A stretch of DNA of 64,000 bases from Boletus sp. NGJ (lineage: Eukaryota > Basidiomycota > Agaricomycetes > Boletales > Boletaceae), in NCBI GenBank assembly GCA_019096195.1, contig JAGTXK010000038.1, positions 333,863 through 397,862 of the forward strand. The letters are read 5' to 3'. This document shows positions 37,051 to 64,000 of the stretch, piece after piece. The notes beneath the pieces are model-generated. The model worked only from the letters and a program-made list of their open reading frames with translations, ran no database searches and had not been told where the DNA came from. The first letter of the stretch is position 1; every line of letters begins with the position of its first letter. A program made the translations under genes and the position numbers.

Positions 37051-37066
37051 TGGATTAGACTGCGAT
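37051..37066 (+). other. probable primer-binding site
   Basis: TGGATTAGACTGCGAT begins 2 bp after the left LTR. It starts with TGG, the complement of the tRNA CCA end. I did not identify the tRNA. Confidence 0.55.
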
Positions 37067-37662
37067 ACACAACGCTCGGACTCCAGAGCTAAGGAGATAT
37101 ACGCGGGCCCAGCGTTTTAAGGGACATCTGCATAGTATTCACCACTTGACGGTGACGAGAAAAGCACTCGCCGAAACGCTTGAATATACGCTCGTCCGGC
37201 GTCATAAATAAGGATAACGTTGCTGCCGGGCATAGTGCACTAGCCCCACTTCTTAGGTGGTTGCCGACCTAAGCGTACGCTGGTTCTACGATAGTGAACC
37301 CAGGTTCTCGTGATCACCTGTGACGTCACGAAGTAGCGTTAGGGGGATTTATCTCGCCTTTCTCCTGTGCTACACCTGCTTGTAGTAAAAGCAGTTATAC
37401 TCCGGTCCCCCTACCACCGTCGCCCACCATTTTTAACGATCTATACTTCGACTCCTACGAAGGCGTAGGAACCCCAGAACCGGATTGCAAGATATCTGGT
37501 AGTAAGGTTCTGAAAGAAGACCGACGAAGGAAAAGGAAAACTATACAAGAAACCCCGACAAAGTCAGACCTCTCCGCCCATCCTCCGCATTCGCCCTTTA
37601 CCGCATCCAATACTTCCGCTCTTACCTCCGCCCCACATCACTCCTAAGGCCCAACCAACGAT

Positions 37663-38772
37663 ATGTCTAGAGTCGACATTGACGACTTGGTCAAGAAACT
37701 CGCCGACCTTACTCAGGAACGCGACAAGGAAAACATCACAAAGAAGATCGCCGATCCTGGGAAATGGGACGGCACAAGGTCATCATTCCGCCCCTGGTGG
37801 ATAAAGCTCCGTCTCTGGGTTGACGCCCAGAACATGGAAAAACAACAAGATTATGGACATCGCTGTCCTCTCCCGTCTCGAAGGAAAAGCAGAAGCCTTC
37901 GCACAACTAATCATGGAGCACTACCTCGATGAGGAAGCTACCATCGAGACGGACGCAAACGGGGTCTTGCTAGCCGGCAAAAGGAGCCGACTGCTTGGCC
38001 CACTTGGAACAGGTTGCAGGAGCAGATAAAAACCCATTTCTGCATCGACACTCTGGCCCACGAGTCTTTAAGGAAACTCGAGACCTTAAAACAAAATGGT
38101 CATCCTATTGACCTGTTCCTCCAACGATTCGAGATCTTAAGGAAAGAGTCGTACATCGACGACCACCACGCTGCAGTTCTACTGAAAAAGGCGGTAGACT
38201 ACAAAATTTACGAACGTTCTCGTCTTGAACAGCCCCGCCCGCAATTTTGACTACGAAGATCTAGTCATAAACTACAGAGTACATAGGGCGGGCATTCGAA
38301 CAGATCGTAAACGAGCGTGGTCCTCCTCACAGATCTCAACCCCGCATCATCCTTCCCTCCTCCCCGTGGGCAACCCCCACAAAATTCTTATCGTCCTACC
38401 TACACGGCAGTAGGAACTCAACCGGGTCGCGGCGCGCCCATGGAGATAGGTGTCCAGCAGGCTGGACCCTCCAAGGAAACTCGCACCTGTTTCCATTGTG
38501 GCAAACCCGGCCACATAAAACCTAACTGCCCGACGAACCCTTTCAAAAGGACAGGTCGTCCGCCCATGCAACGCCAGATTTGGGACTGGAATCAAGGCTC
38601 GTACGTCGAGCAAAATCAGGGAGAAAATGAGTATCCCCATTTTTTTAACGAATCCCAATCTCGCGCATATGCGCAACGACCTCTCCCGCAACCTCCCGTA
38701 GCTACGGCGGCACCAAGCGTAGCAGCAAGGACTTACGTTTCCGATGAGGCGGAAGCGTACTATCAGAGATAA
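37663..38772 (+). pseudogene. gag of the chromovirus, interrupted by frame changes
   Basis: The ATG at 37663 starts MSRVDIDDLVKKLADLTQER. The capsid-like part continues in other frames (KIMDIAVLSRLEGKAEAFAQ; then SLRKLETLKQNGHPIDLFLQ and RFEILRKESYIDD), and the nucleocapsid part has CFHCGKPGHIKPNC, a perfect CX2CX4HX4C knuckle, at about 38490-38531. Frame changes lie near the A5 run at 37838-37842, near 37980-37995 and near 38245-38330. The frame ends at 38770-38772. Gag forms the particle in which reverse transcription takes place. The breaks may be true decay or consensus errors. Confidence 0.85.
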
Positions 38773-38813
38773 ATTCGAGGTAGAAGCAAAAGCCCGAGCT
38801 GCACAGGCTTTAA

Positions 38814-41800: not shown

Positions 41801-42446
41801 GTAACACGAAACTACATACCGCGTATGGGTTTCGAAGGGAATCTCACGGGTTTTGCAGACGAAATTGGGCGAAATCATAAGGAGATTGAAGAAGCGCTGG
41901 AAGCTACACGAGAGAGGATGATCACCTCTTCCGATAAAAAACGATCTACAGCACCACGAATATTCTATTGGTCAGCAAGTCTGGCTTTCAACAGATAAAT
42001 TAAAACTTCCTTATACGGCGAAAAAACTCACACAAAAATGGATTGGCCCTTACGTTATCACTCGGGTACTTCCTAACGCCGTAACGCTCAAACTACCTAA
42101 TTCTGTTCACATCCATCCAACTGTGAACATTTCTCGCGTCAAACCATATAGAGATACGCTGCCTGGACAGCCTAAATCTCGACCAGACGCTATAGAAATT
42201 GACGAAGAAGGAGAAGAGCAATTCGAAGTTGATTATATCGCCGCTTCCAGGTTGAAGAAAGGCAAAATAGAATATTTGGTTCATTGGAAAGGTTACGACG
42301 AAACCGATCGAACTTGGGAATCTGAAGACATTCACGTAACTGCACCGGATGCAGTACAAGATTTCCATCGTCTTAACCCTTCCGCACCACGCAAGCTTCG
42401 TGGTCTTATCGTTATCAGCATTCGCTTCTTTATTCTCACCTTATGA
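38814..42446 (+). pseudogene. pol of the chromovirus: protease, RT, RNase H, integrase, chromodomain; frame interrupted
   Basis: Protease: LLDSGASHTFID (about 39160). Reverse transcriptase: YRYLNEGTIKNSYPLPLI, LFTAMDLRWGYNNVRI, and the catalytic YIDD at about 40112. RNase H: VETDASDIATGAVLS (about 40560) and WTDHKNLEYW. Integrase: HH-CC zinc finger (HDSPIAGHGGH to CQVCALTKG, about 41160-41300), DFITGL, DRGPQF and HPQTDGQTERVN. Chromodomain: FEVDYIAASR, EYLVHWKGYDETDRTWESED (about 42222-42335). One-base shifts lie in or next to the A-run near 40249, near 41388 and near 41955. Without them the polyprotein would be complete. The chromodomain in chromoviruses directs integration to heterochromatin, which fits the CpG-depleted target. 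Confidence 0.92.
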
Positions 42447-42494
42447 AAATTTCACCGAAAACGAAAAAACAACGACTCGCCTGGAATTCGAGTC

Positions 42495-42509
42495 TTAAAG
42501 AGGGGGTAG
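42495..42509 (+). other. polypurine tract
   Basis: TAAAGAGGGGGTAG directly precedes the right LTR, the standard plus-strand primer position. Confidence 0.8.
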
Positions 42510-42993
42510 TGTAATAATATGGGAAATTTTCAAACTTTTCAAACGATCACTTACTTCTTCATTTTCTTCAAACTTCTTCTTCATAAGTCACGTGACTGTG
42601 CACGTGACCGTGGGAACACATCACATGATAGGTCTAGAACCTATGACGTCATATGACATCATACCTCATGTGATCCACGACCTTTTAATTTCCGCTCTTC
42701 TCACACAGCCCTCTTAATCTCCGTCTTACCATACGTAGTAATTTATCACACGCACAGCTTGGTCCGTGCGCACTTCTCCTCATGTATATAAACTAGCACT
42801 TTGACGACTGGTACCCCAGTCTAATCCACTTGTATCTTCCTCCAACAATCCATTAGCTTCGGTCTTCAGGCCGTCGTAGGGTTGGGAATATCCAGGACTA
42901 AGACTCCCCTCCTGATTCGTTCAGCCAGGACTCGTGTAGCCTGCAACGCATTCCGAGCCTTGTGGTTTTGTTTTCCGAAAGGGACTCATAACA
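42510..42993 (+). repeat. right LTR of the chromovirus (484 bp)
   Basis: Nearly identical to 36567-37048. GGTCCGTGC is at 42761-42769. The length difference of +2 is explained by three 1-bp gains and one 1-bp loss. Confidence 0.95.
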
Positions 42994-42998: not shown

Positions 42999-44175
42999 GA
43001 GACCCAGATCTTTTAGGGGAGAGTTATGGTCTATTCTGGCTTCAGTCTTGAATGTCCCTGTTGACCAAGCAGCCTCCTTCCCTTTATTAGTATCAATAAT
43101 GATACCAGCATCAGCTGCATTTCTAATGATAATGGTCAGCCTCAAAACATATAAATCAATTTTAGAAAGACTCATCTTTGACATTTGCTCATTTGTTGCT
43201 TGTCTGTCAGATGCTTGTCACACTTCCTCATAGTAGCTGAATGGTAACTTCTGATCATATACTTTGAAAAAGTAAGGCAGAGTAGACAGATAGCAAGCAG
43301 ATGAGAGAGCAAGAACAAAAAATAGGAGGGATGAAAGGGGGCTACCCTTTAAATCAAAAAAATGAATACTCATCCTGTTTAGTTTGCTGTGATGGTAATA
43401 GGAGTACCTGTGACTGCAGACAATGACTAATTCTAGTAATACATTAAGTCACTAGTCATTAATGTTCCAACACCATGTTCACAAGCTAAACAGTTCTTGT
43501 GGATCAGGTTGAAGACTACAAGTATCCCACTAGTATGAAGAGTATTTAGGACCTGGCCATCAGACTTCAATGATTTGTCTACTTGTTATGTTAACTACCT
43601 AAGTTACCAGTTTCCACTCTTGTGAAAAGTACATTACTCATGACAAGAATAGCCAATCTTGAGCTCACTATCGACCAAGTGCTACTCTTTCTCTGCTCTT
43701 TAAAAGATAATTCACTATCATTAATAGATGCTAATTTGATGTTAGTAATTTTGTAGGAGAACATTAGCAGAGTTGAAATGCTCACTATTATCAAAGCCAA
43801 TGTCAAATAGCTAGAGGTAAACCCTGGCACTTGTCTTACAGTATGTAAACATTAAACTACTACTGTCTCTTCACAAGCACAAACACCACTGTCATCACAA
43901 TGACAGAACCATCTGAGTGTTCTACTATTGAGACACAAAATATGCTGTAGTTTCATTCATAAATTCTGTTGAAGCTGCAAAAATATATGATGGGATGAGA
44001 ACTATCAAAAAACAGCAAGCTTTTGGAGTCCTTTTGCCTGAGACTGCATCACATATGCATTATGAATACTGTGTGTGCTTGCCAAATCCATAATTACTGT
44101 ATTCATTGATGCCCCTTGTACTTTATAATCTATAAAGGCCCATGCAGGTGAAAGTGGAGGCTGCCTGTGATTGAT
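42999..44175. other. CpG-depleted decayed repeat DNA, right of the chromovirus
   Basis: Continuation of the block at 34490-36561. CG is very rare. One minus-strand frame (43591-43830) reads ITNIKLASIN followed by a short pattern faintly like the start of a LINE endonuclease, too weak to call. Confidence 0.6.
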
Positions 44176-44185
44176 CTAAAAACTT

Positions 44186-47100
44186 CTAGAATTTGATGTG
44201 CAGCACATAAACTGGACAATCTGGGAGAAAATAGGGATGACTGATTTGGGCAAACCATTGATTACTATTGGGGAAGATGTGACTTTCACATATGCACATA
44301 TGGTTTTCCTTCCTTTCTCTTGTGATCTGTATATGACACTTTGCAAGTACTCCTTTGGTACCATTAACAATCTTATTTTGCATTGAAAGATTTTCCGTAA
44401 TTATAACAATCATACCAGGAATTAAAGGCAATTGTCCTAATGTTTCCTTTGCTTCCTTAGTCCTGATGTACGATAGTTGAGTATGGTCATCTTCATGCAC
44501 AACCCTCTTTTGAATCTTGTCAATTGTGAGATATTCCTGATATTCTTGGCCTATGTTGATGGTGAACTCCTATGCTTTTAGGTCATTATATATGTTATGT
44601 AAATGATGTTCTCTAAATACAACAGGTGTGTCATGTAGTGCCTTATAATCTTCTGGGAGATCAAGTGTAGCTTATGTAGTGTACACATCTTCAAGACCTT
44701 GTAGTTGCTCAGGCCATCCTCCATGAAGACAGTACCTTTTTCTTTGTGAATACAATTAAAAAGGTTGACATAATCTGGATCCTTGAGAGTCCTTATTTTT
44801 TTTTTCAACTTGACAATATGTGTAAGTTGTTGCCAAACAACCAAGTAGATCTGATGAATATAATACTGCACTTTCCATGGGTTGCAGTTGTCCCAAATTG
44901 CCAGCAAAGACTATGTTCACCCCACCGAATATTTTTTCTGTGGCTCCTAGAATCCCCCTTTTCCCTGAGGCAATGTGCTCAGAGACCTGGCAAAGAAATT
45001 CTGTAGATATCATAGAGATTTCATCCAATCTAAGGTAGTGCACCCTCTTCCAAACCAATTCCAATTCAGAATGCTTATAAGCAGACTCTCTTCCAGAAAG
45101 AAATGTTAAAGCATGAATAGTATATCTGTTGATAAGTATAGCAGTGCTTCCTGTTGGTGCACTTAGCTACAGATTGTCAGGACAATCACATCACTTGAAA
45201 AGAGCTACAATTGCCTTTATGATATGACTCTTGCCAGAGCCTCCAATTCCCATTATAAGGAGCATCCATCATGCCAAATGCAAAATGCTCTGTAGCAATC
45301 TAAAATGAGGACTGTTCCTCATTGTTGTCAAGTGAGAATTCTGCATGTATAGCATCAATAGTGACAATAACCTCCTCATTTGTCATCCTAGAGGCATATA
45401 CAGGTTTGGGTTAAACAGAGTCTAGAATTTCTATAATAGAAATTTGAGGATTGACAAGGAGATGTCTTTTGCTAGATAAAGATTTCCCATGGTTGTTCAA
45501 TGGATGCAAACACTTATTCTTCTTTTCTTGCACCATAAAACAAGTTTGCTAGGTGATGGTTGGCTCCGTCTTTCCAGAAATTATTGTGTTCACCAAACTG
45601 CTTTAAAGCATGTTTCCCAGGCTTTGTTGAAAAGTGTCTTCAGGCTGTTTTGAAAATCTCCTGTTCATTATTGGTAAGTCATTCTATTGAACAGTCATTT
45701 ATCCCACTGAGGTCACTGTCATTTAAAGCTTGAGAAGATATTTCTTTGTCAAGATCATTGTCCATAGCAAGAATGTGGCATAGTGGATCTCTGTTGATCA
45801 GAATATGCCCATCATCTTCAAAATCTTCTGAACTATGTGGTAACCCAACTGCTGATCGAACTGTTCAGTCTGCCTTTGCATCCTGACACTCAGCATTGAC
45901 CATCATATTATTCATAAGCTCCAAGTAGTATGGTGTGAAGAGAACTCCTTCGAATGCATGCATCCAAGTTTCCCCCAGTTATCTCAAGTCACCAAATGAC
46001 TGCGATAATTTGAATAACAAGAGCATGTAGTGGAAGTACTTCTTGTCATCAGTAGGAAGTCCATTTCTTCTCAGAATGGTATCACCAATTAGAACCAGTA
46101 AGACCATAAGAGCAAGCATGCCCATGCTATAAGACTCCATCTGAGGGTGTTTCTCTGATGAAAATGGAAGTTGAATGATGTGAGGATGTCCACATCTACA
46201 CTTGGTCTGCTCTCCTTCATTGTCACCCTCAGAATCAGAACCCTTTCCAAGGTCACTAGCTTTATTTAGCTTTCAAACATATTGATCTATGTAAAAATTA
46301 CAATCAAATCAATCTCTATCTTATTGCATTACACCACAACCAACCTTTCATGTCTGCTCAATGAACTCCCACACTGACATGTCCTCAAACAGCATCACCA
46401 GAGGTCTAAACTGATAATCTAATATATTACTGGAGATAGTAGGTTTTTCTGAAGACACATCAATAACAAATTCTTTCTCAGCTTCATCATTGATTTCATT
46501 ATCAATGTTATGTACTCCTTCATCTCCATCACTTTGGATATGTTTGTAATGATTGAGTGCTGCCAAAAAATTGTGAAAATAGATGGATCTAAGTTGATGA
46601 CTGCTATAATAGTCTCCTTCACTAATGAGATAACTTATAACTTGCTAATACAAGACTTCTTGATGACTCAAGTCCATTTAGATATTTTGTCACTAGATTT
46701 CAATCACAAACTGGCTGACTGGTTGTGTCATCCTCACAGAACTTCTCTGTGTGACTCTTGATGGCAGCCTGTAAAATTCAAACTCCAGTATGAATCTTCA
46801 GGTCACTTTTGGTAATGTAGTCAGTAATGTAGTATATCAACACCTTCACTGTGGGTCCACTGCCAATGTATTTGATGTCCATGTTACTCTGAAAGAGAAA
46901 TAACATGACATCATTGTAATTATTGATCTAAGGATGCAAGCACCATAACTGGAATAAAAGTGTCTCCTCATTCAGTTTTGTAAAGGTGTGGATCTGACCA
47001 TCTATATGCATCCAACAATTTCCATCAGTTCGAGATTCACCCCTTTTGAGATGTTTGAAACATGTATCAACATGCATATACCAGTTGCACTTGATAGTGA

Positions 47101-47520
47101 GATGATGAATGAAATTTCTAAATTTATGGATAAAGCACAGACTATTCATTTCTGCCACTTCAGGAGGTTGTTCAGACCATACATCCATTTCTTCAGCTTC
47201 CTGTGGTAACAGTAACTGAGCATTTTCAACATCTAATGGCTGTGTCATTCTGGGAAGCTCATAGTTAATATTATTCTCCATTCATGAAAATATCATGATG
47301 TGACATTCAGACTCTTTAATCATTTGATTCTGTAGAACTTGTGGGTTTGGATTACCATCCAGCCACAAGAGCATATGACAATGCAGCATTCCTCATCCTT
47401 GTGCCTCAACTATACCATAGTAAGTCTTGCATGTTCTAAACAATCCACTCCCCTTGTCATACCATTGAAATGATTTTCTCCATTCTTGTAGATACCATAC
47501 CACTTAGCTAAAGGATGCTC
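44186..47520 (-). pseudogene. decayed Helitron transposase (Helitron-like N domain plus PIF1-type helicase)
   Basis: Collinear fragments on the minus strand. Helitron-like domain: GMLHCHMLLWLDGNPNPQVL (about 47330-47400), GNCWMHIDGQIHTFTKLNEET and NMDIKYIGSGPTVKVLIYYITDYITKSDLK (about 46800-46900). PIF1 helicase: Walker A GIGGSGKSHI (45221-45251), APTGSTAILI, Walker B LRLDEISMIS then GVNIVFAGNLGQLQPM (about 44860-45020), and LPLIPGMIVIITENL (about 44370-44430). Stops and shifts are frequent, many of them TGA where CGA (Arg) is expected. The helitron relaxase tyrosines and the 3' CTRR hairpin were not found. The upstream end runs into an LTR near 47528, so the Helitron is probably truncated or interrupted there. 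Confidence 0.8.
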
Positions 47521-47527
47521 CCACAAA

Positions 47528-48097
47528 TGATTATATAATAGCTAACACCCAAGGCCTCAAATCCATGTCTAGACCTATGATGTCACTCTCACATCATAGA
47601 ATGCTCTAGAACAATACATTACAATTATGTCACTATTCCAGCACATTCCATGCTGACCCTAAAGATGGTCCGTGCATGTATCTTGTAGTATAAATAGTAG
47701 CATATGCTGTCCATAGTACTCATTCTTGGAATTGCTATTCTATTCTTTGGATATCACTTTTGAGTGACTCTTAAAATTGTTAGCTTGATTTTTTCAAATT
47801 TCAAGAATACTGTACCCCTTGATCACTGGGCCCTTTGTCCCCCAACTACCTTTCCTCCATTGTCAAGCCTTGCTATCATCTTTAACAACATGCCTGTTCT
47901 TTTCTCTACTTCCCTCTCATTGCATCAATTTGCTAGGACAATCATAGACTCTGAGGGTTGAGGATCCAAGGGAGCTCAATTAGTGTTAAGCATAAACCTA
48001 GCCTATCAAGGTGGTTGCTAGTGTTGAGCATAAGCTACAACTAGCAGAGAAGATAAGGAGTTCAGAAACCTTTTGATTTCATTTGCTATCCATAACA
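47528..48097 (+). repeat. decayed 5' LTR of the old gypsy element
   Basis: The probable end is CCATAACA at 48097, aligned with the CTCATAACA end of the young chromovirus LTR; the following sequence aligns with the young element's leader. GGTCCGTGC at 47667-47675 and TATAAATA at 47689 mark the core promoter. The start at TGATTATATAATAG is approximate. CG dinucleotides are almost absent. Confidence 0.6.
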
Positions 48098-50273
48098 CTC
48101 TCCCCACTATCTGTCCTTATGACCCTTCATTACAGACATTCCATAGCTGGACCTCAGGCTTAAGAGGAATCTGTTGGCATATGTGACATGCCTGAGTAGA
48201 CCCTCATTAAAGCTGTTGCACATATGCTTGTCCAGTATACTAAATAAGGATAACATTGCTACTGGGCATAGAGCACTAGCTCCCATCATCTGCTGAATGC
48301 CTAGCAGTCTGTACCCTCCTTGATGCTACAGGAGGTAGGTTCGCATAATCACCTGCAACGTCATGCCAGTATGACAAGGGAACTATCTTGCCATTTTCCT
48401 GTGCACACCTTCCTGCAGTATGGAAGTTATCCTCCAGTTCCACTTTGACAATCTTCATCCTCATCAGGATCTCTTCACAGAACCATCTTCCCATCATTCC
48501 ATATAATTCTGAGCATGCAGCCAAGTGCCACTTAGTTGCATCAATCCCCCATTTCCACTTGTTACCAGCCACCTCTGGTACTACCTTCACCAGGCTATAT
48601 CCACCATGTCACATCAATCCAGTTCACATCCTCATATCCTACATCACATGCTTTGGGACTTTCTTACCTGCCATATCAGACTAACCAACATACTCATTGA
48701 AATACTCACAGAACTCCTCTACTTCCTCCAATGATAATGAGCTACAACTTCCTAGCACCAACACCAGGACCCTCTTGGGGCACCACATTTGCAGCCATGG
48801 CTGTGACCCTTGAAGATATCAATACTGTGTTGTCCATCCCCATGCAACAATTGCTGGTAGAGGCCCCCTCATCTAGAGATCCCTTGGCAGCTTTGCCATT
48901 TGGATTTTTGGGCCAACAAATACCTTCCAGCCTTGTTACTACCATGCCCACAAACCTGTTGCTCCACCATCAGCACCCCATGCCACCCATGGATCCAGTC
49001 AGAACATGGCTGGCTGCCTTCAAAGCATGGCAAAGAATCTATCAGAGAGCAGGGGCAGTGGCAGGGCTGCCACCTCTTCCTCCTCCCAACCTTACCACCA
49101 TGATGATACTGCCACAACAACCATCACCCTGCCATCCCCTTCCACCAACTCCCCATTCTCCTCCCTCACCAGGAGACCCCTGGGCAGTAGCACACAGCTC
49201 CCCCAGACCTTCACCTAAACTGGGCAAGTCTCTGGTGGCAAAGCTGGAATATTATGATGGCAATAAAGAGAAGTTCATATCCTGATGGAGGACAATGAAA
49301 CTGTACTTGTTGGATTTTGAAACAACCCTGTAAGACTACCAAAAAATCTTGATCATGTTGTTGTATCTTCATGGTAGCAACCCAATGGGGAGATTTAGAG
49401 ACCTCATGATAGCACAGGGAGCCATCCATATCCTCACCTTTGTGAGCTTTGAGGAAAAGCTCAAAAAGAACTTCCAGCCAGCAAATCTAAAGCACATAGC
49501 ACAACAAAAGCTCATGGGGCTAAAACAAGGCAAGGACACAGTGGAAGACTATTTCACTAAACTCTATCACTATGCCAAAGAAGCCAAGTTCAACATCGGC
49601 TATAATGGAAGAGTAGTTGTAGACTTAGTAAGGTGAGCAGTACACTCAGACATCATAGAGTTTGTGGAAAGAAATCAGCTGGCACTAATTGAGTCCACCA
49701 ATGTCCATGACTGGGAGACTGCCCTCATAAAGGCCTCAAACATCCTCACAGAAATCACTAACAGGAAGTGGTTAGTTTACACAACAGGCCTAGTCTACAT
49801 CCCCTATTTTGTATCACACCCTTGGTATACTGCCCCTGCAGGCCCTCCTCTCACTGCTGCAGCCACTTCTGTAGCAAAGCCTCACCCAAACACAACTGGC
49901 ACATTCACTGGTCAAGGCACTCCTATGGAGCTCAATAAAGCATGCACAGCTAGAGTGTGCCACAAATGTTCAAAGCCTTGGCCTTATGCTGATCACTCCC
50001 CATGCCCTGCCCTCATCAAGCAAGAGGCATTGTAATCAATGGACAAGAAGTGTCACCAGAGATGTTCACTAGTATATGTGTGATCATGACAGACACTGAA
50101 TGGGCAGAGCCCACCATAGAGTATGCCTCAGATGTTGCACAAAACTTGTCTTTTCTCCTAGTACAGTAGACAACAGCTGCTCTCCTATATAAATACCTAA
50201 GTCATTGCAAAAGAATCATTTTGCTCCTCTTTGCAGTGATGAGGCTGAACTAGAAGAAATTCAAGTAAACCTC

Positions 50274-50278
50274 CTGAC
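50274..50278 (+). repeat. target-site duplication CTGAC (left copy) of the solo LTR
   Basis: CTGAC directly precedes TGTTACGG and recurs at 51212-51216 directly after CATAACA. Confidence 0.85.
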
Positions 50279-51211
50279 TGTTACGGTTATGGAAGAGGGT
50301 ACATCTTTTTCTCTTCCTTCACCTTCTCTTAGACTCTAGGACAACCTCTTCTTTGACTCCTCCGACTACCCAGGATTCCTCCATGACACCCATGCAAGCA
50401 TCGCCCCATCTGAAATCCCCCTTCCAAGTGATGCACCACTATGGCTGTGGCACAGCCTACTCTATTTCACTTTACATGCATTTCACCTCTGATCTGATCT
50501 GATCATAGACATTGCCTCCTCAGCTGTGTTCTCTTGCACACAGCCCAGTATTCCACTTTCCTCATTTGACTGATGATATAATCCCTTATGGTAATACTGG
50601 AGTATTACCATATATGATACAAAGCCTGCCCTAAATAGGGAAGGCCTATCTATATATGGGCAACTGCCCTTCATGTAAACTCCAACCTAGATCTACACAA
50701 CTTCCTGTGTAATCTACCCAGCTCTCGGTTCCACTTCATCTCAGAAGCCTGCACCCACTCTGAAGGTGATCACCACAGTGCTCGTGATCATCCTTCTCAT
50801 CACTTCGCACTTGTGTGGCCTTGTTACCGTTTGGTCATGTACCTAGCCAATGGCAACTCCCATGCAGACAGAGGTCTGCCTGTCTAAGCCCAGGACTCCA
50901 CCACTGGCAGCACAGTAAATCCAGGACTCTGCCACTGGTACCAGCATAGGCCTGGAACTCCACCACCAGCCCTCGTATATGATAGGTCTGCGCCTCCACC
51001 AGACTGTGCCACCATTGTCAAAGTCCAAGACTCTGCCATTGGTTGTAGAATAGACTCCAACCCCAAGGGAGGCTCTACATGAAAGCTAGCTGTCAGTTCC
51101 CAGTCTGAGGAACATTGGACCTTGGGAGGTATTTTCCCCTCAAATCTGGCTAGTCCAGTAATCAAACAGGTTGATTACTTGGGAACGTGTCACTTGTTAC
51201 CTGGCATAACA
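50279..51211 (+). repeat. solo LTR (933 bp) nested between gag and protease of the old gypsy element
   Basis: Begins TGTTACGG and ends GGCATAACA, with a CTGAC duplication on both sides. It is homologous along its length to the CpG-rich LTR at 54337-55338 (for example GTTACGGTTATGGAAGAGGG against GTTACGGTTAACGAAGGGGG). It has lost many CG sites. Removing it and one CTGAC rejoins the flanking reading frame (VNLL then TPEVKI). Confidence 0.88.
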
Positions 51212-51216
51212 CTGAC
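51212..51216 (+). repeat. target-site duplication CTGAC (right copy)
   Basis: Identical to 50274-50278. Confidence 0.85.
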
Positions 51217-53256
51217 ACCAGAGGTAAAAATCACAATCATAAAGCATCTCCTGTCATCTAAGAAAGTCATCTTTGATCCATTAGTGAAAGGAGATGATGG
51301 ACCAAATGACTCATGAACAATCTTTCAGAAACTCTCCAAGAAACTCCCTTGAAATCTCTGTATGATTGAATTTATTGAACAGTGACCAAGCAGAAGTTCA
51401 AGCCCTCATTGATTCAGGCTATATAGGATCTTCAATCCTTGAAAACTTTGTCACTGAAAAGGGGGTACAAACCCATTCATTACCACACACCCTAATGATG
51501 TATAATGCCAACAGCACTGCCAATGCTGGAGGCAAAATTGAAAAATTTGTTATAGTTGGGCTCCAGGTCCAAGACCACAAAGAACAGATCACCCTTGCAG
51601 TAACAAACCTTGGGCCTAACACAATCTTTTTAGGACACAACTGGCTGAAGATGCATAATTCAACCATCGACTGGAGAACAGAATGAATTTCCTTCTGCTA
51701 TAGAAATGACCACATCACTACCTTGGTAGATAAGGAAGATGATGAAATGGACAAAGACTTTGCTCCCTCACAAGAAGACCAACTCTTCCAACTAGACAGC
51801 AACAAATATATATGCAATGTCACAATGGAAGTAGCAATCAAAGACTATGTCCAAAAGAAAAAGAAGACCTTTGAGGAAGCTGCCCCTGAATGTGTTCATG
51901 AACTCAAGGACACGTTCACAAAAGAAAGTTTCAATGCACTCCCCCCAAAACATTCTTGGGATCATGCAATTGAACTACTCCCAGGGAATCATAAGATAGA
52001 CTGCAAAGTATACCCTCTGAACCTGGGAGAACAAAAGGAACTCAATGGCTTCCTTGAAGAGAATCTCAAATCTGGACACATACGTCCCTTGAAATCTCTG
52101 TTCACCTAGGCATTCTTCTTCATTAAAAAGAAAGATGGACACCTCTACCCTGCACAAGATTATCAGAAGCTCAATGTGGTAACCCACTGCAACTGATACC
52201 CCCTCCCCCTTATCACTAAACTTGTCAACAAACTCAAAGTGGCAAGATACTACACCAAGTTCAACATTAGATGGGGGTACAACAATGTATAAATGGCAGA
52301 AGGAGATGAGTGGAAAGCAGCATTCTGAATAAATCACAGGCTCTTTGAACCCCTTGTGATGTTCTTCAGACTCACCAATTCACCAGCAGTGTTTCAAACT
52401 ATGATAAACACATTGTTCAAAGACTGATGTGTAGTGGTCGTCTATATAGACAATATCATGATATTCACAAAAATGATCAAAGAACACCAAAAAGTAGTGT
52501 GAGAGATGCTACAAATCCTGCATGGTGCCCACCTATACCTTTATCACAATAAATGTGACTTCAAAGTTCAAGAGATGGAATTCCTTGGACTCATCATTGC
52601 CTAAGACAAGGTCAAGATGGACCACAAAAAGATCTCTGCCATCATAGATTGGCCCATCCCAACATCCAAAAAGATGCTTAGCGGTTTCCTTGGATTCCTC
52701 AACTTCTACTGATGCTTCATCAAAAACTTCACCATGATTGTGTGACCACTTAATGCACTCATGTCAGTGAAAAAGGACTTCATCTGGATGAACGACTGCC
52801 AAAAGATGTTTGAAGACCTCAAACACACCATCTCCATAGCACCCACCCTTGCCATGCTGACAGACAATGACCACTACCATGTTGAAACTGACAGCTCTGG
52901 CATTGGCATTGGCACTGTCCTCTCCCAGAAACACAATGGTGTTTGGCACTCCATCATGTTTATCTCCCACTTCCTCAATAACATGGAAAGAAATTATCAC
53001 ATGACCAACTTGAAGATACTTGCTATCATTTTCGCTCTTAACAAATGGTGACAATATCTCCTTGATGCTACCCACCCAATTGAGATTCTGACTGACCACA
53101 AGAACCTCGAATTCTTCCATTGTCCACAAAATCTTTCCTGCCATCAAGCCCAATGGCAAAAAATCATCCAAGAGTACTCCCTCACCATTACTCACTGATC
53201 AGACAAGACAAACCCTGCCAACCCTCTGTTTTGGAGGCCAGACTTTAAAAAGGGGG

Positions 53257-54336
53257 TGAAACATAACAACACCCAGCAAACGCTGGGGTATATTCAAGAA
53301 GACTGGGATCTTTGCATGTGCATGTGAAACGATCACGGATGATATCACCTATTTATTAGCACCCCTACCTACACTTTCGTACCACCTACAGACGATACAC
53401 TTGCCTACTCTCACCCAACCTCCATCCCTACCCCATTACACATACACCTAGAGTAGTCACTCGTCGTATCCTCCCCCATATGATACATCATACCACCGAC
53501 TACACCCATGTATGCTTTCACTAGTCGTACCCTCGTCATATCCGTTACACTATGACACCAAGTAGCCTCATGGCTAAACCCCGGCCTCACAGCCACAAGT
53601 AAGGCCCGCACACCTATAAACTACGCCCTCCCCCTTGTGGACCTACCTGATGCAGCGCTTGGTAGCCACACCGTGCATCACGATGCCCCATACGATGACA
53701 ATAACCCCTTTGTCACATATACACTCGTTACACGCATGTCCCCCTGTAGACAGTACCTGACGCAGAGCTCGGTACACTACACAAGTACTAATCAAGCTCA
53801 TGCTAGATTAACCCAAGTACTGATCAGACGAACGCCAGATCACAACCCCTAGACAAGACCCGATCTATCGCCCGATACAATCTCATCTCAATACCAGATC
53901 CAATGATCACCACATGCAACGCCTTATGTGTTACCTTTCCATTTCTCGCCTCCATTCCCATCTATTGGTTCCCTTTAGATATATCACACGTAGCCATGCC
54001 TAGAGCGCTCCGGACTACATTTCACTTACATGCGCATACCACACACATCTCATTCTATCGCTTCTCCTTTTTGCCATTGGACACTAACATTTCCTCGTTC
54101 CTATGATGTCATACCCAGTACCCTATGACATCATAACATAGCACGGTCCGTGCACCACTATCGGTAGTATATAAGTAGCCGGTAGAGTACCATGTTTTGC
54201 CTAGTCTTGAAATTGCCTTTCTCTCTGTCACATATTGCTTCAGTTAGCAACGCTTCAGATATTGGGTTTAGGTTTCTTTCTTTCGCCCATTGCAAGTTCC
54301 TTTCAGCATGCCACCATGATTTGCTTCTGTGGGTGG
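53257..54336 (+). repeat. CpG-rich LTR-like segment after the old polypurine tract
   Basis: It starts TGAAACATAACAACACCC exactly after the polypurine run, where a 3' LTR should begin. Near the end it has a TGATGTCA/TGACATCA pair, GGTCCGTGC at 54145-54153 and TATATAAG at 54168. Unlike the element it follows, CG is frequent. It is broken off at 54337 by another LTR. No open frame of note. Confidence 0.55.
54145..54175 (+). promoter_or_regulatory. LTR core promoter: GGTCCGTGC plus TATA box
   Basis: Same motif and same 23-bp offset as at 36817-36847. Mirror copy near 57314-57344 on the minus strand. Confidence 0.55.
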
Positions 54337-55338
54337 TGTTACGGTTAACGAAGGGGGTATATCTTTTCCCCTTCCTTCTCCCCCTGTAGGACTATGGGAC
54401 GATCTATTCTTCGACTCTGACCAGGGATTCCCCCGCGACACCAACTCAGGCATTGCCCCATCCGGAACTACTGTTCTAGGAAGTTATTCATAACTTCCTC
54501 TTTAGGAACCTACCCGTTTGGTATGGACATCGCCTTCCTATTTCATTTGATACATGCCTTCTTCCTTTTTGATCTGATCATAGACATTGCCTCCTTGGCT
54601 ATGCTCTCTCGCACATAGCCCAGTACTCCTACTTTCCCCATTGGACTCATGCCTGATCCGTTTATAGTAATCTTTCGTCTACGACTAAACATTACTATAT
54701 TCGTCACGAAGCCTGCCCTAGATGGGCAAGGCCTATAAATAGGGACGTGGGCCCTTCATGTAACTCTAACCTAGATCTACACTCCTTCCCGTGTAATCTA
54801 CTGCTTCTCCCGCTAAAGGTTCCACTTCACCTCAGAAGCCTTCTCCTGCGATCTGGAGGTGCTCGCCCTCATGCTCGTGATCATCTTCCTCATCACTTCG
54901 CACTTGTGCGCCGTCGTTGCTGTTACAGGCTTCTAAAGCTTTGGCAACTCCAACGACCAACAGAGGTTGGTCGTCGTCGGTCAGGACTCCGCCACTGACC
55001 CAGCAAGCCCGGGACTTCGCCACCGGCATCGAAGACTCCGCCATTCGATATTAGGCCCAGTAAGCCCTAGGAATCAGCAGACGGAAGGCTACTGCTCCTA
55101 GGCCTGCGCACCGGTCTGCCCCCTCCTTAGTGTAAGGATTGGGATTCCGTGGTAAATCCGAGACTCCACCATCGGTCGTAGAGGTAACGAGAGGACTCTA
55201 CGTAAAGCTAGCAGCGGTCCCCAGTCAGAGGGTATTTGGGCCTCTGGAGGTTAAGTAATCTTCCTCAAGTCCTGCTAGTCCTATAATCCAACAGGGGGAT
55301 TATACGGGAATGTGTCACCATTGTTACCAGGCGTAACA
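54337..55338 (+). repeat. LTR (1002 bp) with TGTTACG/CGTAACA ends
   Basis: The terminal inverted repeat TGTTACG...CGTAACA marks it as an LTR of the same family as the solo LTR at 50279-51211. TATAAATA at 54734-54741 is a likely TATA box. It is CpG-rich. The flanks GGTGG and AAAGA do not match, so it is not a simple solo LTR; it is followed by internal sequence. Confidence 0.75.
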
Positions 55339-55733
55339 AAAGATCTAGGTTATAAATTGCCGAAGACTATCCAGTCTAGCAACTCCCATTGTCATTCCAA
55401 GGAGGAATTGAAACCGCCTATCAGAGGATAGGCCCTCGCTCTACACACTGCGCAGAATCAACCTTTCCCATCTCCTAGGAGAAGATTGAGAAGAAGAAGC
55501 CGCACTGTCACGGGCTTCTACTCCTATCTCTGATACGTCTTCATCAAGAAGGATCCCAGGGTCATCATCCCATTACAACAACCCTCCCGCCCACACATTT
55601 CCAGATCAATCCAGATGACCAGATTTTCCAGGTGGTCTCCGCTCTCGCACCGCGACCCCATCAGACGCTCCCATCCCACTGCCAGCGTTCCAACCGGTCC
55701 CTATCCGAGTAGATTCACCCGATCCTCTGTTCC
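55339..55733 (+). mobile_element. 5' internal start of a gypsy-type element, truncated at the palindrome centre
   Basis: Sequence after the LTR, including a proline- and serine-rich stretch (55560-55730) typical of a gag start, runs into the 28-bp spacer. The rest of the element is absent; the right arm holds its mirror image. Confidence 0.5.
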
Positions 55734-55761
55734 CAAGCGGGAAGATCTAGTCCGCGATCCA
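55734..55761. other. 28-bp spacer at the centre of the inverted repeat
   Basis: The only sequence not paired between arms. It contains an AGATCT site and an imperfect GCGG...CCGC stem. No telomere-like repeat, tRNA or origin-like motif is seen in it. Confidence 0.9.
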
Positions 55762-56157
55762 GGAACAGAGGATCGGGTGAATCTACTCGGATAGGGACCG
55801 GTTGGAACGCTGGCAGTGGGATGGGAGCGTCTGATGGGGTCGCGGTGCGAGAGCGGAGACCACCTGGAAAATCTGGTCATCTGGATTGATCTGGAAATGT
55901 GTGGGCGGGAGGGTTGTTGTAATGGGATGATGACCCTGGGATCCTTCTTGATGAAGACGTATCAGAGATAGGAGTAGAAGCCCGTGACAGTGCGGCTTCT
56001 TCTTCTCAATCTTCTCCTAGGAGATGGGAAAGGTTGATTCTGCGCAGTGTGTAGAGCGAGGGCCTATCCTCTGATAGGCGGTTTCAATTCCTCCTTGGAA
56101 TGACAATGGGAGTTGCTAGACTGGATAGTCTTCGGCAATTTATAACCTAGATCTTTT

Positions 56158-57152
56158 GCTGGTAACAATGGTGACACATTCCCGTATAATCCCCCTGTTG
56201 GATTATAGGACTAGCAGGACTTGAGGAAGATTACTTAACCTCCAGAGGCCCAAATACCCTCTGACTGGGGACCGCTGCTAGCTTTACGTAGAGTCCTCTC
56301 GTTACCTCTACGACCGATGGTGGAGTCTCGGATTTACCACGGAATCCCAATCCTTACACTAAGGAGGGGGCAGACCGGTGCGCAGGCCTAGGAGCAGTAG
56401 CCTTCCGTCTGCTGATTCCTAGGGCTTACTGGGCCTAATATCGAATGGCGGAGTCTTCGATGCCGGTGGCGAAGTCCCGGGCTTGCTGGGTCAGTGGCGG
56501 AGTCCTGACCGACGACGACCAACCTCTGTTGGTCGTTGGAGTTGCCAAAGCTTTAGAAGCCTGTAACAGCAACGACGGCGCACAAGTGCGAAGTGATGAG
56601 GAAGATGATCACGAGCATGAGGGCGAGCACCTCCAGATCGCAGGAGAAGGCTTCTGAGGTGAAGTGGAACCTTTAGCGGGAGAAGCAGTAGATTACACGG
56701 GAAGGAGTGTAGATCTAGGTTAGAGTTACATGAAGGGCCCACGTCCCTATTTATAGGCCTTGCCCATCTAGGGCAGGCTTCGTGACGAATATAGTAATGT
56801 TTAGTCGTAGACGAAAGATTACTATAAACGGATCAGGCATGAGTCCAATGGGGAAAGTAGGAGTACTGGGCTATGTGCGAGAGAGCATAGCCAAGGAGGC
56901 AATGTCTATGATCAGATCAAAAAGGAAGAAGGCATGTATCAAATGAAATAGGAAGGCGATGTCCATACCAAACGGGTAGGTTCCTAAAGAGGAAGTTATG
57001 AATAACTTCCTAGAACAGTAGTTCCGGATGGGGCAATGCCTGAGTTGGTGTCGCGGGGGAATCCCTGGTCAGAGTCGAAGAATAGATCGTCCCATAGTCC
57101 TACAGGGGGAGAAGGAAGGGGAAAAGATATACCCCCTTCGTTAACCGTAACA
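56158..57152 (-). repeat. mirror copy of the TGTTACG LTR, lacking 6 bp at its inner end
   Basis: Identical in reverse complement to 54337-55338 except that GCGTAA is missing, which removes most of the terminal CGTAACA. Confidence 0.8.
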
Positions 57153-58232
57153 CCACCCACAGAAGCAAATCATGGTGGCATGCTGAAAGGAACTTGCAAT
57201 GGGCGAAAGAAAGAAACCTAAACCCAATATCTGAAGCGTTGCTAACTGAAGCAATATGTGACAGAGAGAAAGGCAATTTCAAGACTAGGCAAAACATGGT
57301 ACTCTACCGGCTACTTATATACTACCGATAGTGGTGCACGGACCGTGCTATGTTATGATGTCATAGGGTACTGGGTATGACATCATAGGAACGAGGAAAT
57401 GTTAGTGTCCAATGGCAAAAAGGAGAAGCGATAGAATGAGATGTGTGTGGTATGCGCATGTAAGTGAAATGTAGTCCGGAGCGCTCTAGGCATGGCTACG
57501 TGTGATATATCTAAAGGGAACCAATAGATGGGAATGGAGGCGAGAAATGGAAAGGTAACACATAAGGCGTTGCATGTGGTGATCATTGGATCTGGTATTG
57601 AGATGAGATTGTATCGGGCGATAGATCGGGTCTTGTCTAGGGGTTGTGATCTGGCGTTCGTCTGATCAGTACTTGGGTTAATCTAGCATGAGCTTGATTA
57701 GTACTTGTGTAGTGTACCGAGCTCTGCGTCAGGTACTGTCTACAGGGGGACATGCGTGTAACGAGTGTATATGTGACAAAGGGGTTATTGTCATCGTATG
57801 GGGCATCGTGATGCACGGTGTGGCTACCAAGCGCTGCATCAGGTAGGTCCACAAGGGGGAGGGCGTAGTTTATAGGTGTGCGGGCCTTACTTGTGGCTGT
57901 GAGGCCGGGGTTTAGCCATGAGGCTACTTGGTGTCATAGTGTAACGGATATGACGAGGGTACGACTAGTGAAAGCATACATGGGTGTAGTCGGTGGTATG
58001 ATGTATCATATGGGGGAGGATACGACGAGTGACTACTCTAGGTGTATGTGTAATGGGGTAGGGATGGAGGTTGGGTGAGAGTAGGCAAGTGTATCGTCTG
58101 TAGGTGGTACGAAAGTGTAGGTAGGGGTGCTAATAAATAGGTGATATCATCCGTGATCGTTTCACATGCACATGCAAAGATCCCAGTCTTCTTGAATATA
58201 CCCCAGCGTTTGCTGGGTGTTGTTATGTTTCA
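57153..58232 (-). repeat. mirror copy of the CpG-rich LTR-like segment
   Basis: Reverse complement of 53257-54336. Confidence 0.8.
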
Positions 58233-61200
58233 CCCCCTTTTTAAAGTCTGGCCTCCAAAACAGAGGGTTGGCAGGGTTTGTCTTGTCTGATCAGTGAGTA
58301 ATGGTGAGGGAGTACTCTTGGATGATTTTTTGCCATTGGGCTTGATGGCAGGAAAGATTTTGTGGACAATGGAAGAATTCGAGGTTCTTGTGGTCAGTCA
58401 GAATCTCAATTGGGTGGGTAGCATCAAGGAGATATTGTCACCATTTGTTAAGAGCGAAAATGATAGCAAGTATCTTCAAGTTGGTCATGTGATAATTTCT
58501 TTCCATGTTATTGAGGAAGTGGGAGATAAACATGATGGAGTGCCAAACACCATTGTGTTTCTGGGAGAGGACAGTGCCAATGCCAATGCCAGAGCTGTCA
58601 GTTTCAACATGGTAGTGGTCATTGTCTGTCAGCATGGCAAGGGTGGGTGCTATGGAGATGGTGTGTTTGAGGTCTTCAAACATCTTTTGGCAGTCGTTCA
58701 TCCAGATGAAGTCCTTTTTCACTGACATGAGTGCATTAAGTGGTCACACAATCATGGTGAAGTTTTTGATGAAGCATCAGTAGAAGTTGAGGAATCCAAG
58801 GAAACCGCTAAGCATCTTTTTGGATGTTGGGATGGGCCAATCTATGATGGCAGAGATCTTTTTGTGGTCCATCTTGACCTTGTCTTAGGCAATGATGAGT
58901 CCAAGGAATTCCATCTCTTGAACTTTGAAGTCACATTTATTGTGATAAAGGTATAGGTGGGCACCATGCAGGATTTGTAGCATCTCTCACACTACTTTTT
59001 GGTGTTCTTTGATCATTTTTGTGAATATCATGATATTGTCTATATAGACGACCACTACACATCAGTCTTTGAACAATGTGTTTATCATAGTTTGAAACAC
59101 TGCTGGTGAATTGGTGAGTCTGAAGAACATCACAAGGGGTTCAAAGAGCCTGTGATTTATTCAGAATGCTGCTTTCCACTCATCTCCTTCTGCCATTTAT
59201 ACATTGTTGTACCCCCATCTAATGTTGAACTTGGTGTAGTATCTTGCCACTTTGAGTTTGTTGACAAGTTTAGTGATAAGGGGGAGGGGGTATCAGTTGC
59301 AGTGGGTTACCACATTGAGCTTCTGATAATCTTGTGCAGGGTAGAGGTGTCCATCTTTCTTTTTAATGAAGAAGAATGCCTAGGTGAACAGAGATTTCAA
59401 GGGACGTATGTGTCCAGATTTGAGATTCTCTTCAAGGAAGCCATTGAGTTCCTTTTGTTCTCCCAGGTTCAGAGGGTATACTTTGCAGTCTATCTTATGA
59501 TTCCCTGGGAGTAGTTCAATTGCATGATCCCAAGAATGTTTTGGGGGGAGTGCATTGAAACTTTCTTTTGTGAACGTGTCCTTGAGTTCATGAACACATT
59601 CAGGGGCAGCTTCCTCAAAGGTCTTCTTTTTCTTTTGGACATAGTCTTTGATTGCTACTTCCATTGTGACATTGCATATATATTTGTTGCTGTCTAGTTG
59701 GAAGAGTTGGTCTTCTTGTGAGGGAGCAAAGTCTTTGTCCATTTCATCATCTTCCTTATCTACCAAGGTAGTGATGTGGTCATTTCTATAGCAGAAGGAA
59801 ATTCATTCTGTTCTCCAGTCGATGGTTGAATTATGCATCTTCAGCCAGTTGTGTCCTAAAAAGATTGTGTTAGGCCCAAGGTTTGTTACTGCAAGGGTGA
59901 TCTGTTCTTTGTGGTCTTGGACCTGGAGCCCAACTATAACAAATTTTTCAATTTTGCCTCCAGCATTGGCAGTGCTGTTGGCATTATACATCATTAGGGT
60001 GTGTGGTAATGAATGGGTTTGTACCCCCTTTTCAGTGACAAAGTTTTCAAGGATTGAAGATCCTATATAGCCTGAATCAATGAGGGCTTGAACTTCTGCT
60101 TGGTCACTGTTCAATAAATTCAATCATACAGAGATTTCAAGGGAGTTTCTTGGAGAGTTTCTGAAAGATTGTTCATGAGTCATTTGGTCCATCATCTCCT
60201 TTCACTAATGGATCAAAGATGACTTTCTTAGATGACAGGAGATGCTTTATGATTGTGATTTTTACCTCTGGTGTCAGTGTTATGCCAGGTAACAAGTGAC
60301 ACGTTCCCAAGTAATCAACCTGTTTGATTACTGGACTAGCCAGATTTGAGGGGAAAATACCTCCCAAGGTCCAATGTTCCTCAGACTGGGAACTGACAGC
60401 TAGCTTTCATGTAGAGCCTCCCTTGGGGTTGGAGTCTATTCTACAACCAATGGCAGAGTCTTGGACTTTGACAATGGTGGCACAGTCTGGTGGAGGCGCA
60501 GACCTATCATATACGAGGGCTGGTGGTGGAGTTCCAGGCCTATGCTGGTACCAGTGGCAGAGTCCTGGATTTACTGTGCTGCCAGTGGTGGAGTCCTGGG
60601 CTTAGACAGGCAGACCTCTGTCTGCATGGGAGTTGCCATTGGCTAGGTACATGACCAAACGGTAACAAGGCCACACAAGTGCGAAGTGATGAGAAGGATG
60701 ATCACGAGCACTGTGGTGATCACCTTCAGAGTGGGTGCAGGCTTCTGAGATGAAGTGGAACCGAGAGCTGGGTAGATTACACAGGAAGTTGTGTAGATCT
60801 AGGTTGGAGTTTACATGAAGGGCAGTTGCCCATATATAGATAGGCCTTCCCTATTTAGGGCAGGCTTTGTATCATATATGGTAATACTCCAGTATTACCA
60901 TAAGGGATTATATCATCAGTCAAATGAGGAAAGTGGAATACTGGGCTGTGTGCAAGAGAACACAGCTGAGGAGGCAATGTCTATGATCAGATCAGATCAG
61001 AGGTGAAATGCATGTAAAGTGAAATAGAGTAGGCTGTGCCACAGCCATAGTGGTGCATCACTTGGAAGGGGGATTTCAGATGGGGCGATGCTTGCATGGG
61101 TGTCATGGAGGAATCCTGGGTAGTCGGAGGAGTCAAAGAAGAGGTTGTCCTAGAGTCTAAGAGAAGGTGAAGGAAGAGAAAAAGATGTACCCTCTTCCAT

Positions 61201-63391
61201 AACCGTAACAGTCAGGAGGTTTACTTGAATTTCTTCTAGTTCAGCCTCATCACTGCAAAGAGGAGCAAAATGATTCTTTTGCAATGACTTAGGTATTTAT
61301 ATAGGAGAGCAGCTGTTGTCTACTGTACTAGGAGAAAAGACAAGTTTTGTGCAACATCTGAGGCATACTCTATGGTGGGCTCTGCCCATTCAGTGTCTGT
61401 CATGATCACACATATACTAGTGAACATCTCTGGTGACACTTCTTGTCCATTGATTACAATGCCTCTTGCTTGATGAGGGCAGGGCATGGGGAGTGATCAG
61501 CATAAGGCCAAGGCTTTGAACATTTGTGGCACACTCTAGCTGTGCATGCTTTATTGAGCTCCATAGGAGTGCCTTGACCAGTGAATGTGCCAGTTGTGTT
61601 TGGGTGAGGCTTTGCTACAGAAGTGGCTGCAGCAGTGAGAGGAGGGCCTGCAGGGGCAGTATACCAAGGGTGTGATACAAAATAGGGGATGTAGACTAGG
61701 CCTGTTGTGTAAACTAACCACTTCCTGTTAGTGATTTCTGTGAGGATGTTTGAGGCCTTTATGAGGGCAGTCTCCCAGTCATGGACATTGGTGGACTCAA
61801 TTAGTGCCAGCTGATTTCTTTCCACAAACTCTATGATGTCTGAGTGTACTGCTCACCTTACTAAGTCTACAACTACTCTTCCATTATAGCCGATGTTGAA
61901 CTTGGCTTCTTTGGCATAGTGATAGAGTTTAGTGAAATAGTCTTCCACTGTGTCCTTGCCTTGTTTTAGCCCCATGAGCTTTTGTTGTGCTATGTGCTTT
62001 AGATTTGCTGGCTGGAAGTTCTTTTTGAGCTTTTCCTCAAAGCTCACAAAGGTGAGGATATGGATGGCTCCCTGTGCTATCATGAGGTCTCTAAATCTCC
62101 CCATTGGGTTGCTACCATGAAGATACAACAACATGATCAAGATTTTTTGGTAGTCTTACAGGGTTGTTTCAAAATCCAACAAGTACAGTTTCATTGTCCT
62201 CCATCAGGATATGAACTTCTCTTTATTGCCATCATAATATTCCAGCTTTGCCACCAGAGACTTGCCCAGTTTAGGTGAAGGTCTGGGGGAGCTGTGTGCT
62301 ACTGCCCAGGGGTCTCCTGGTGAGGGAGGAGAATGGGGAGTTGGTGGAAGGGGATGGCAGGGTGATGGTTGTTGTGGCAGTATCATCATGGTGGTAAGGT
62401 TGGGAGGAGGAAGAGGTGGCAGCCCTGCCACTGCCCCTGCTCTCTGATAGATTCTTTGCCATGCTTTGAAGGCAGCCAGCCATGTTCTGACTGGATCCAT
62501 GGGTGGCATGGGGTGCTGATGGTGGAGCAACAGGTTTGTGGGCATGGTAGTAACAAGGCTGGAAGGTATTTGTTGGCCCAAAAATCCAAATGGCAAAGCT
62601 GCCAAGGGATCTCTAGATGAGGGGGCCTCTACCAGCAATTGTTGCATGGGGATGGACAACACAGTATTGATATCTTCAAGGGTCACAGCCATGGCTGCAA
62701 ATGTGGTGCCCCAAGAGGGTCCTGGTGTTGGTGCTAGGAAGTTGTAGCTCATTATCATTGGAGGAAGTAGAGGAGTTCTGTGAGTATTTCAATGAGTATG
62801 TTGGTTAGTCTGATATGGCAGGTAAGAAAGTCCCAAAGCATGTGATGTAGGATATGAGGATGTGAACTGGATTGATGTGACATGGTGGATATAGCCTGGT
62901 GAAGGTAGTACCAGAGGTGGCTGGTAACAAGTGGAAATGGGGGATTGATGCAACTAAGTGGCACTTGGCTGCATGCTCAGAATTATATGGAATGATGGGA
63001 AGATGGTTCTGTGAAGAGATCCTGATGAGGATGAAGATTGTCAAAGTGGAACTGGAGGATAACTTCCATACTGCAGGAAGGTGTGCACAGGAAAATGGCA
63101 AGATAGTTCCCTTGTCATACTGGCATGACGTTGCAGGTGATTATGCGAACCTACCTCCTGTAGCATCAAGGAGGGTACAGACTGCTAGGCATTCAGCAGA
63201 TGATGGGAGCTAGTGCTCTATGCCCAGTAGCAATGTTATCCTTATTTAGTATACTGGACAAGCATATGTGCAACAGCTTTAATGAGGGTCTACTCAGGCA
63301 TGTCACATATGCCAACAGATTCCTCTTAAGCCTGAGGTCCAGCTATGGAATGTCTGTAATGAAGGGTCATAAGGACAGATAGTGGGGAGAG
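58233..63391 (-). mobile_element. mirror copy of the decayed gypsy internal region
   Basis: Reverse complement of 48098-53256, including the nested solo LTR at 60278-61210 with CTGAC duplications at 60273-60277 and 61211-61215. It has the same stops and the same YIDN active-site change as the left copy. Confidence 0.85.
60278..61210 (-). repeat. mirror copy of the nested solo LTR
   Basis: Reverse complement of 50279-51211, with CTGAC on both sides in the minus-strand reading. Confidence 0.85.
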
Positions 63392-64000
63392 TGTTATGGA
63401 TAGCAAATGAAATCAAAAGGTTTCTGAACTCCTTATCTTCTCTGCTAGTTGTAGCTTATGCTCAACACTAGCAACCACCTTGATAGGCTAGGTTTATGCT
63501 TAACACTAATTGAGCTCCCTTGGATCCTCAACCCTCAGAGTCTATGATTGTCCTAGCAAATTGATGCAATGAGAGGGAAGTAGAGAAAAGAACAGGCATG
63601 TTGTTAAAGATGATAGCAAGGCTTGACAATGGAGGAAAGGTAGTTGGGGGACAAAGGGCCCAGTGATCAAGGGGTACAGTATTCTTGAAATTTGAAAAAA
63701 TCAAGCTAACAATTTTAAGAGTCACTCAAAAGTGATATCCAAAGAATAGAATAGCAATTCCAAGAATGAGTACTATGGACAGCATATGCTACTATTTATA
63801 CTACAAGATACATGCACGGACCATCTTTAGGGTCAGCATGGAATGTGCTGGAATAGTGACATAATTGTAATGTATTGTTCTAGAGCATTCTATGATGTGA
63901 GAGTGACATCATAGGTCTAGACATGGATTTGAGGCCTTGGGTGTTAGCTATTATATAATCATTTGTGGGAGCATCCTTTAGCTAAGTGGTATGGTATCTA

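Follow-up and report, generated by a model that had tools for sequence, protein, structure and literature searches.

Genes and repeats of the window

The window, by which we mean the whole 64,000-bp stretch of Boletus sp. NGJ analysed here, corresponds to C117:333863-397862 in an assembly of 32.8 Mb and 141 contigs. Positions 9960-10811 encode a protein of 283 residues, 281 of which are identical in a protein of Butyriboletus roseoflavus (Boletaceae), J3R82DRAFT_1754; the Boletus reticuloceps match is named Mediator complex subunit 8. On the minus strand, a gene for AROM (shikimate pathway; 17.4-19.9 kb) carries two one-base frame changes at 17894-17998, both at G runs. Judged against relatives P0001-P0005, which read through in frame, these changes in this one gene are probably residual consensus errors, in line with an earlier suggestion that homopolymer errors occur outside the region discussed below. 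A third apparent frame change, near 19625, sits at a GTAAGG site that probably belongs to an intron and was left uncounted. Further along, 36564-42993 is an LTR retroelement whose LTRs are 98% alike and which has reverse-transcriptase, RNase H and integrase domains. Full-length copies of 36567-42400, 94-100% identical, lie on at least eight contigs (query 30000-42400; best 10 of 403); the genome searches with this query and with 20000-30000, both just over 10,000 bases long, omitted the window itself, so that their lists are incomplete. The sole 5.8S rRNA match among the best 39 of 947, at C81:1729574-1729740, is close to transposable-element sequence and appears CpG-decayed against a normal 5.8S.

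The observed/expected ratio of CpG is 0.90-1.24 in the first 34 kb of the window and 0.03-0.13 at 44-52 kb, CpG being nearly gone throughout 44001-52000; around the fold described below it is 0.73. From 47489 to its end the window is palindromic, and each arm contains an LTR element, old and depleted in CpG, in which another LTR is nested, as well as the start of a second, less depleted element. With such contents, it is unlikely that the palindrome is one mobile element that was duplicated. The edge of the old element, at 47465-47466, was seen in two of the six paralogous loci compared, the other four beginning further in. The features are as follows.

44001-50252, plus strand: stretch 93-94% identical to contig C16 and co-linear over the arm's outer edge at 47489 (44001 is merely the limit of the fetched piece)
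From 47465-47466, plus strand: old CpG-depleted LTR element, delimited by homology to other copies; the left arm begins 23 bp inside it
47489-55733, plus strand: left arm, the native copy, 8,245 bases
50279-51211, plus strand: nested LTR of the TGTTACG...CGTAACA type, inside the old LTR element
About 54337-55733, plus strand: 5' LTR and leader of the second, less CpG-depleted LTR element, of the same TGTTACG...CGTAACA type; the leader runs to the fold
About 54337-55338, plus strand: 5' LTR of the second element, with the six-base arm difference at its 3' end
55730-55733, plus strand: TTCC, the left arm's inner edge and one half of the inverted microhomology
55734-55761, plus strand: loop (spacer) of 28 bp, native continuation of the second element's leader
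55762-55765, plus strand: GGAA, the start of the mirror, which fits both the native continuation of the paralogues and the complement of TTCC
55762-64000, minus strand: right arm, mirror of the left arm, reaching the contig's final base; six bases are missing near 56158

A palindrome reaching the very end of the contig

Self-alignment of the window returned a single large inverted pair, 47489-64000 against itself, with six mismatches and eight gap openings counted over the entire pair, spacer included. When the arms were aligned with one another (8,245 against 8,239 bases), no substitution was found in 8,239 aligned bases, and the sole difference was a 6-bp indel: bases 55331-55336 of the left arm are missing in the right arm at 56158. 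The original prediction of a near-perfect 16.5-kb inverted repeat with a 28-bp spacer is borne out by these alignments, as is its claim that the arms share their old mutations, since all but this one indel are common to both. A palindrome of 16.5 kb is far beyond chance. In the remainder of the window, 1-47488 searched against itself on the minus strand with blastn, no inverted repeat appeared at E <= 1e-4. The sequence had also been described as still palindromic at the end of the window; in fact, the palindrome extends to the final assembled base. Contig C117 is 397,862 bases long, window base 64000 is its last base, and the point at which it stops is the mirror of 47489. Because the contig stops there, the outer right flank is absent from the assembly.

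These features bear directly on whether the structure could be a real inverted duplication in the living fungus, in which a resected break primed synthesis by folding back, closed as a hairpin and was replicated to an inverted dimer that one nucleus or subclone of the culture carries. We consider such an origin unlikely. No outer flank is seen at the contig end, and neither a CpG substitution nor any other separates the arms. An inherited duplication would have to be extremely recent, because no substitution has accumulated despite 128 CpG sites in the left arm and the CpG-poor old repeats. On the other side, the 6-bp difference between the arms could be a true later mutation, with the right arm as the derived one.

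A further contig, C16 (60,810 bp), matches the window at 44001-46455 and 46451-50252 with 93-94% identity and is co-linear across 47489. Between the two blocks C16 carries inserted sequence whose ends are TGTTACG/CGTAACA and whose target is duplicated over 5 bp, as is ordinary for an LTR element. Because C16 is co-linear through its outer edge, the left arm is the native, chromosomal one. No palindrome was present in the 18 kb of C16 read beyond the point that matches 50252, which again speaks against a real duplication; the arm is represented in these 18 kb only by diverged transposon fragments of 158 bp (73% identical), 978 bp (78%) and 714 bp (71%), apart from two matches of less than 100 bp. 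C16 may be a second haplotype or an older duplicate. We do not call it simply a second allele, because it also holds a 68% relative of window 26279-27351 at a position that is not co-linear. Over 46451-50252, transitions make up 220 of the 239 substitutions between C16 and the window, and by our own count CpG-type dinucleotides account for just 77 of the 239, so that CpG decay alone is insufficient to explain them.

Elsewhere in the genome, only the C117 arms and C16 matched window 45500-50400 at more than 82% (best 40 of 631 candidates), and for 50250-54400 nothing else exceeded 89% except 104 bp at 92% and 63 bp at 90% (best 40 of 907). Nearer to the fold, the next full-length copies of 55000-55733 are 92% alike, with part-length matches of 94% over 518 bp and of 99% over about 335 bp of LTR (best 40 of 312 candidates). 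None of the candidates scored in this assembly could be recognised as the native continuation of this copy of the second element past the loop. The second element is multi-copy: for five loci, identity along 1.5 kb of the element body rounds to 100% (best 40 of 86), and the loss of the native path at the fold is plausible because the assembly had entered a multi-copy retroelement there.

Five of the 281 other contig ends were examined (C32 right, 13.9 kb; C58 left, 9 kb; C140 right, 9 kb; C96 left, 6 kb; C117 left, 5 kb), and none is a long terminal palindrome, although at the C32, C58 and C140 ends a palindrome exceeding the stretch read could escape. The inverted pairs in these stretches were one of 158 bp inside C32 and one of 80 bp, a transposon terminal repeat, at the left end of C117. 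Searches with the initial 1.2 kb of C117 and C96 returned, among the best 40 of 380 and 40 of 79 candidates respectively, no additional near-identical copy in inverted orientation on the contig concerned. In this small sample, with none of five ends palindromic, an artefact of this kind is not pervasive. The left end of C117 (C117:1-1339) opens with the 80-bp terminal inverted repeat of an element of about 1.34 kb, of which at least 40 copies, itself included, are 99-100% alike (best 40 of 380); copies start at base 16 on C104 and at base 71 on C130. The right end of C117 lies 23 bp inside the mirrored transposable-element edge at 47466, a closeness that is less striking because the left end also starts at a repeat edge.

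Two further observations concern these ends. C96 starts inside a leader of the retroelement family found at the fold; its base 1 corresponds to window 55691, which is 42 bp to the left of the arm's inner edge. C96 was rejected as the true right-hand neighbour of C117, since an identity of 77% over its first 73 bp marks it as another copy; its start near the fold may be a coincidence or reflect a breakage-prone site. A telomere at this end was likewise rejected: an exact four-unit TTAGGG pattern had no match on C117. The matches to that pattern, 10 forward and one reverse, fell only at C107:480617-496075 and C20:131323-131346. They are no excess, because a control pattern matched 18 and 15 times, and those on C107 are interior, because other C107 matches extend to at least 505,252.

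Native loop and inverted microhomology at the fold

Closely related copies of the second element were used to establish what the leader would look like without a fold. Ten distinct loci were compared (C89, C22, C21, C74, C81 twice, C71, C140, C124 and C44; 16 stretches were fetched), which are among the closest of many copies (best 40 of 86 candidates scored). In all ten, the leader passes through the loop sequence into GGAAATCC. The leader in the window crosses the loop to GGAA and from there follows the left arm in complement; TTCC is that arm's inner edge. Judged by this comparison, the fold reads as a strand switch at a 4-bp inverted microhomology, TTCC/GGAA, around a 28-base native loop. 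At the same loop length, an inverted match of at least 4 bp occurs at 0.5% of left-arm positions, and a chance frequency this low favours a fold primed by annealing over an accidental joining of template and complement. The same loci bear on the difference between the arms: the six bases at 55331-55336 are present in ten of ten as well as in the left arm, and the right arm is therefore the derived one.

The loop itself has two single-base insertions that are absent in all ten close paralogous loci. The 398-bp leader beside it differs from the closest paralogue by one indel event and from the other five compared by three or four. A Fisher test of loop insertions against leader indels gave p = 0.012 with one leader event and p = 0.053 with four, a result that hinges on the way in which leader indels are counted. 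Taken with the AROM frame changes, these insertions are weak support for an artefact, because native reads should span the loop too and because a more distant copy, on C96, shows different indels at this place; match lengths across the loop stretch, longer in several distant copies (170 against 164 bases), hint at the like for others.

The composition of the joint bears on several ways in which two complementary strands can come to lie in one sequence. A missed adapter is recognised by adapter sequence, or by directly abutting strands, at the joint; leader sequence and a 4-bp microhomology are found there instead, and an adapter joint at the centre is rejected, since the spacer is native retroelement sequence. 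Fold-backs in long reads are recognised, by the criterion of PMC12870357, from a second arm that maps back to its own locus on the opposite strand within 200 bp, and here the return follows a spacer of 28 bp. A biological fold-back is recognised by a native spacer with short inverted microhomology at its borders, which is what TTCC/GGAA provides.

We also weighed the concatenation of strands, in which template and complement of one molecule are read one after the other, owing to a missed SMRTbell adapter or to a nanopore read that was left unsplit, and no polymerase fold-back takes place. Missed adapters yield this read structure according to the portions of PMC6218980 used here, and those of PMC12870357 give unsplit reads as one hypothesis for palindromic nanopore reads. 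A stretch lost at the start of the complement could, on our reasoning, even leave a native spacer. Such a concatenation is nevertheless very improbable here, given that the spacer is native rather than foreign and that the inverted microhomology at the junction would arise by chance at just the 0.5% stated above.

The fold also offers evidence for a real duplication in the fungus. The loop is native, of 28 bases, and bordered by 4 bp of inverted microhomology. Human fold-back junctions have inverted microhomology of 2-8 bp in 13 of 21 sequenced, in the excerpts of PMC3907307, and short loops occur, since the yeast inverted repeat at which the excerpts of PMC10622511 describe fold-back priming is a natural one whose spacer measures 6 bp. 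Against it, the human spacers in the former excerpts measure 766-70,466 bp, compared with 28 bp here, and the latter indicate that the fused chromosome expected by that route is unstable.

A side effect of the hairpin is visible in structured-RNA searches. The Rfam mraW motif (RF01746) scores above its cut-off of 50 bits on both strands at 55676-55819, with 60.4 and 60.0 bits. The mraW motif is bacterial, and this match on the fold is most likely false and produced by the hairpin.

Probable origin of the palindrome and relation to known systems

Nearly all of the evidence fits a single molecule folded on itself, and in our judgement the palindrome is probably a fold-back artefact at the contig end. 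The sequence comparisons suggest the following course. Inside the leader of the LTR retroelement, a single-stranded 3' end would self-anneal at TTCC/GGAA, leaving a loop of 28 bases, and a polymerase would extend the folded end along its own strand to give a fragment that is hairpin-closed at one end. Given library chemistry, a fragment of this kind with just one sequencing adapter would yield a single long read made up of arm, loop and the arm's complement. The native path enters a multi-copy retroelement at this point, a frequent stopping place for assemblers, and one or a few such reads could then have extended C117 by about 8.2 kb back over its own sequence. We infer that the fold-back arose in vitro, that the supporting reads are few, and that the repeat was the reason why the assembler took them.

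What favours the artefact is that the mirror stops precisely where the contig does, that there are no substitutions between the arms in a genome with CpG-depleted old repeats, and that fold-back reads are common in long-read data. Tumour data quoted in PMC12870357, as far as its excerpts go, put them at 1-4% of genomic reads and at up to 20-30% in some cases. In amplified data sets, palindromic reads reach 45.8% (Arabidopsis) and 11.8% (gorilla) in the parts of PMC6218980 drawn on here, which name amplification and missed adapters as sources and report harm to assembly; about one third of mitochondrial reads are palindromic after multiple displacement amplification, in the corresponding part of PMC13265396. 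The original prediction had offered an artefact and a real giant palindrome as its two readings, and the former is the better supported. Its detail, a template and its complement joined without an adapter, calls for revision, given the native 28-base loop: adapterless strand joining normally leaves no native loop, so that a self-primed, hairpin-closed molecule fits better.

Several observations count against the artefact. The right arm's clean loss of 6 bp is awkward, being unexpected if the same reads corrected the arm, and a loop with a microhomology junction is also the recognised signature of in-vivo fold-back. To these come the five contig ends without a long palindrome, the missing native continuation among the candidates scored and, as a small coincidence, the nearness of the contig end to a mirrored transposable-element edge. 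The junction might be real in the sequenced culture: a break in the retroelement leader would have been closed by 4-bp fold-back priming and would persist in a single nuclear type, either as an end capped by a hairpin or as an inverted dimer of recent origin, from which long hairpin transcripts could supply small RNAs that silence the arms' transposable elements. We hold this to be improbable; were it so, the locus would offer a rare view of a young fold-back rearrangement in a mushroom. If, as we favour, the palindrome is an artefact, about 8.2 kb of the contig (55762-64000) is a spurious copy that would inflate repeat counts, and it would suggest a false giant palindrome or inverted-repeat small-RNA locus and a false structured-RNA match at the fold. 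Checking for a loop plus microhomology can flag similar contig ends without recourse to reads, as a test for fold-back as such, in vitro and in vivo alike, which it does not separate.

Giant palindromes that are long-lived, with those on the primate Y chromosome as an example, resemble the present one in their large arms, very high identity and spacer. The primate Y palindromes lie between two distinct flanks, whereas here the contig stops inside the palindrome, and its content is degenerate transposable elements. A palindrome maintained by gene conversion would be expected to have two distinct flanks and to occur in relatives; the assembly has no right flank, and the homologue C16 contains no palindrome in its 18 kb that were read. 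For giant palindromes, arm lengths of 8.7-1450 kb are quoted in the consulted part of PMC6218980. The fold-back inverted duplications of human and yeast share with this locus an unduplicated spacer between a short inverted repeat or microhomology, as described in the excerpts of PMC3907307 and PMC10622511. They differ in spacer length (28 bp here, 766-70,466 bp in human and 6 bp in yeast in those excerpts), and this locus shows no outer junction with a telomere or a translocation. Fold-back artefacts of long reads, to the extent that PMC12870357, PMC6218980 and PMC13265396 describe them in the portions used, are alike in the return on the opposite strand within 200 bp, in near-perfect symmetry and in a known disturbance of assembly; they are known from reads, whereas the palindrome described here is known from an assembled contig.
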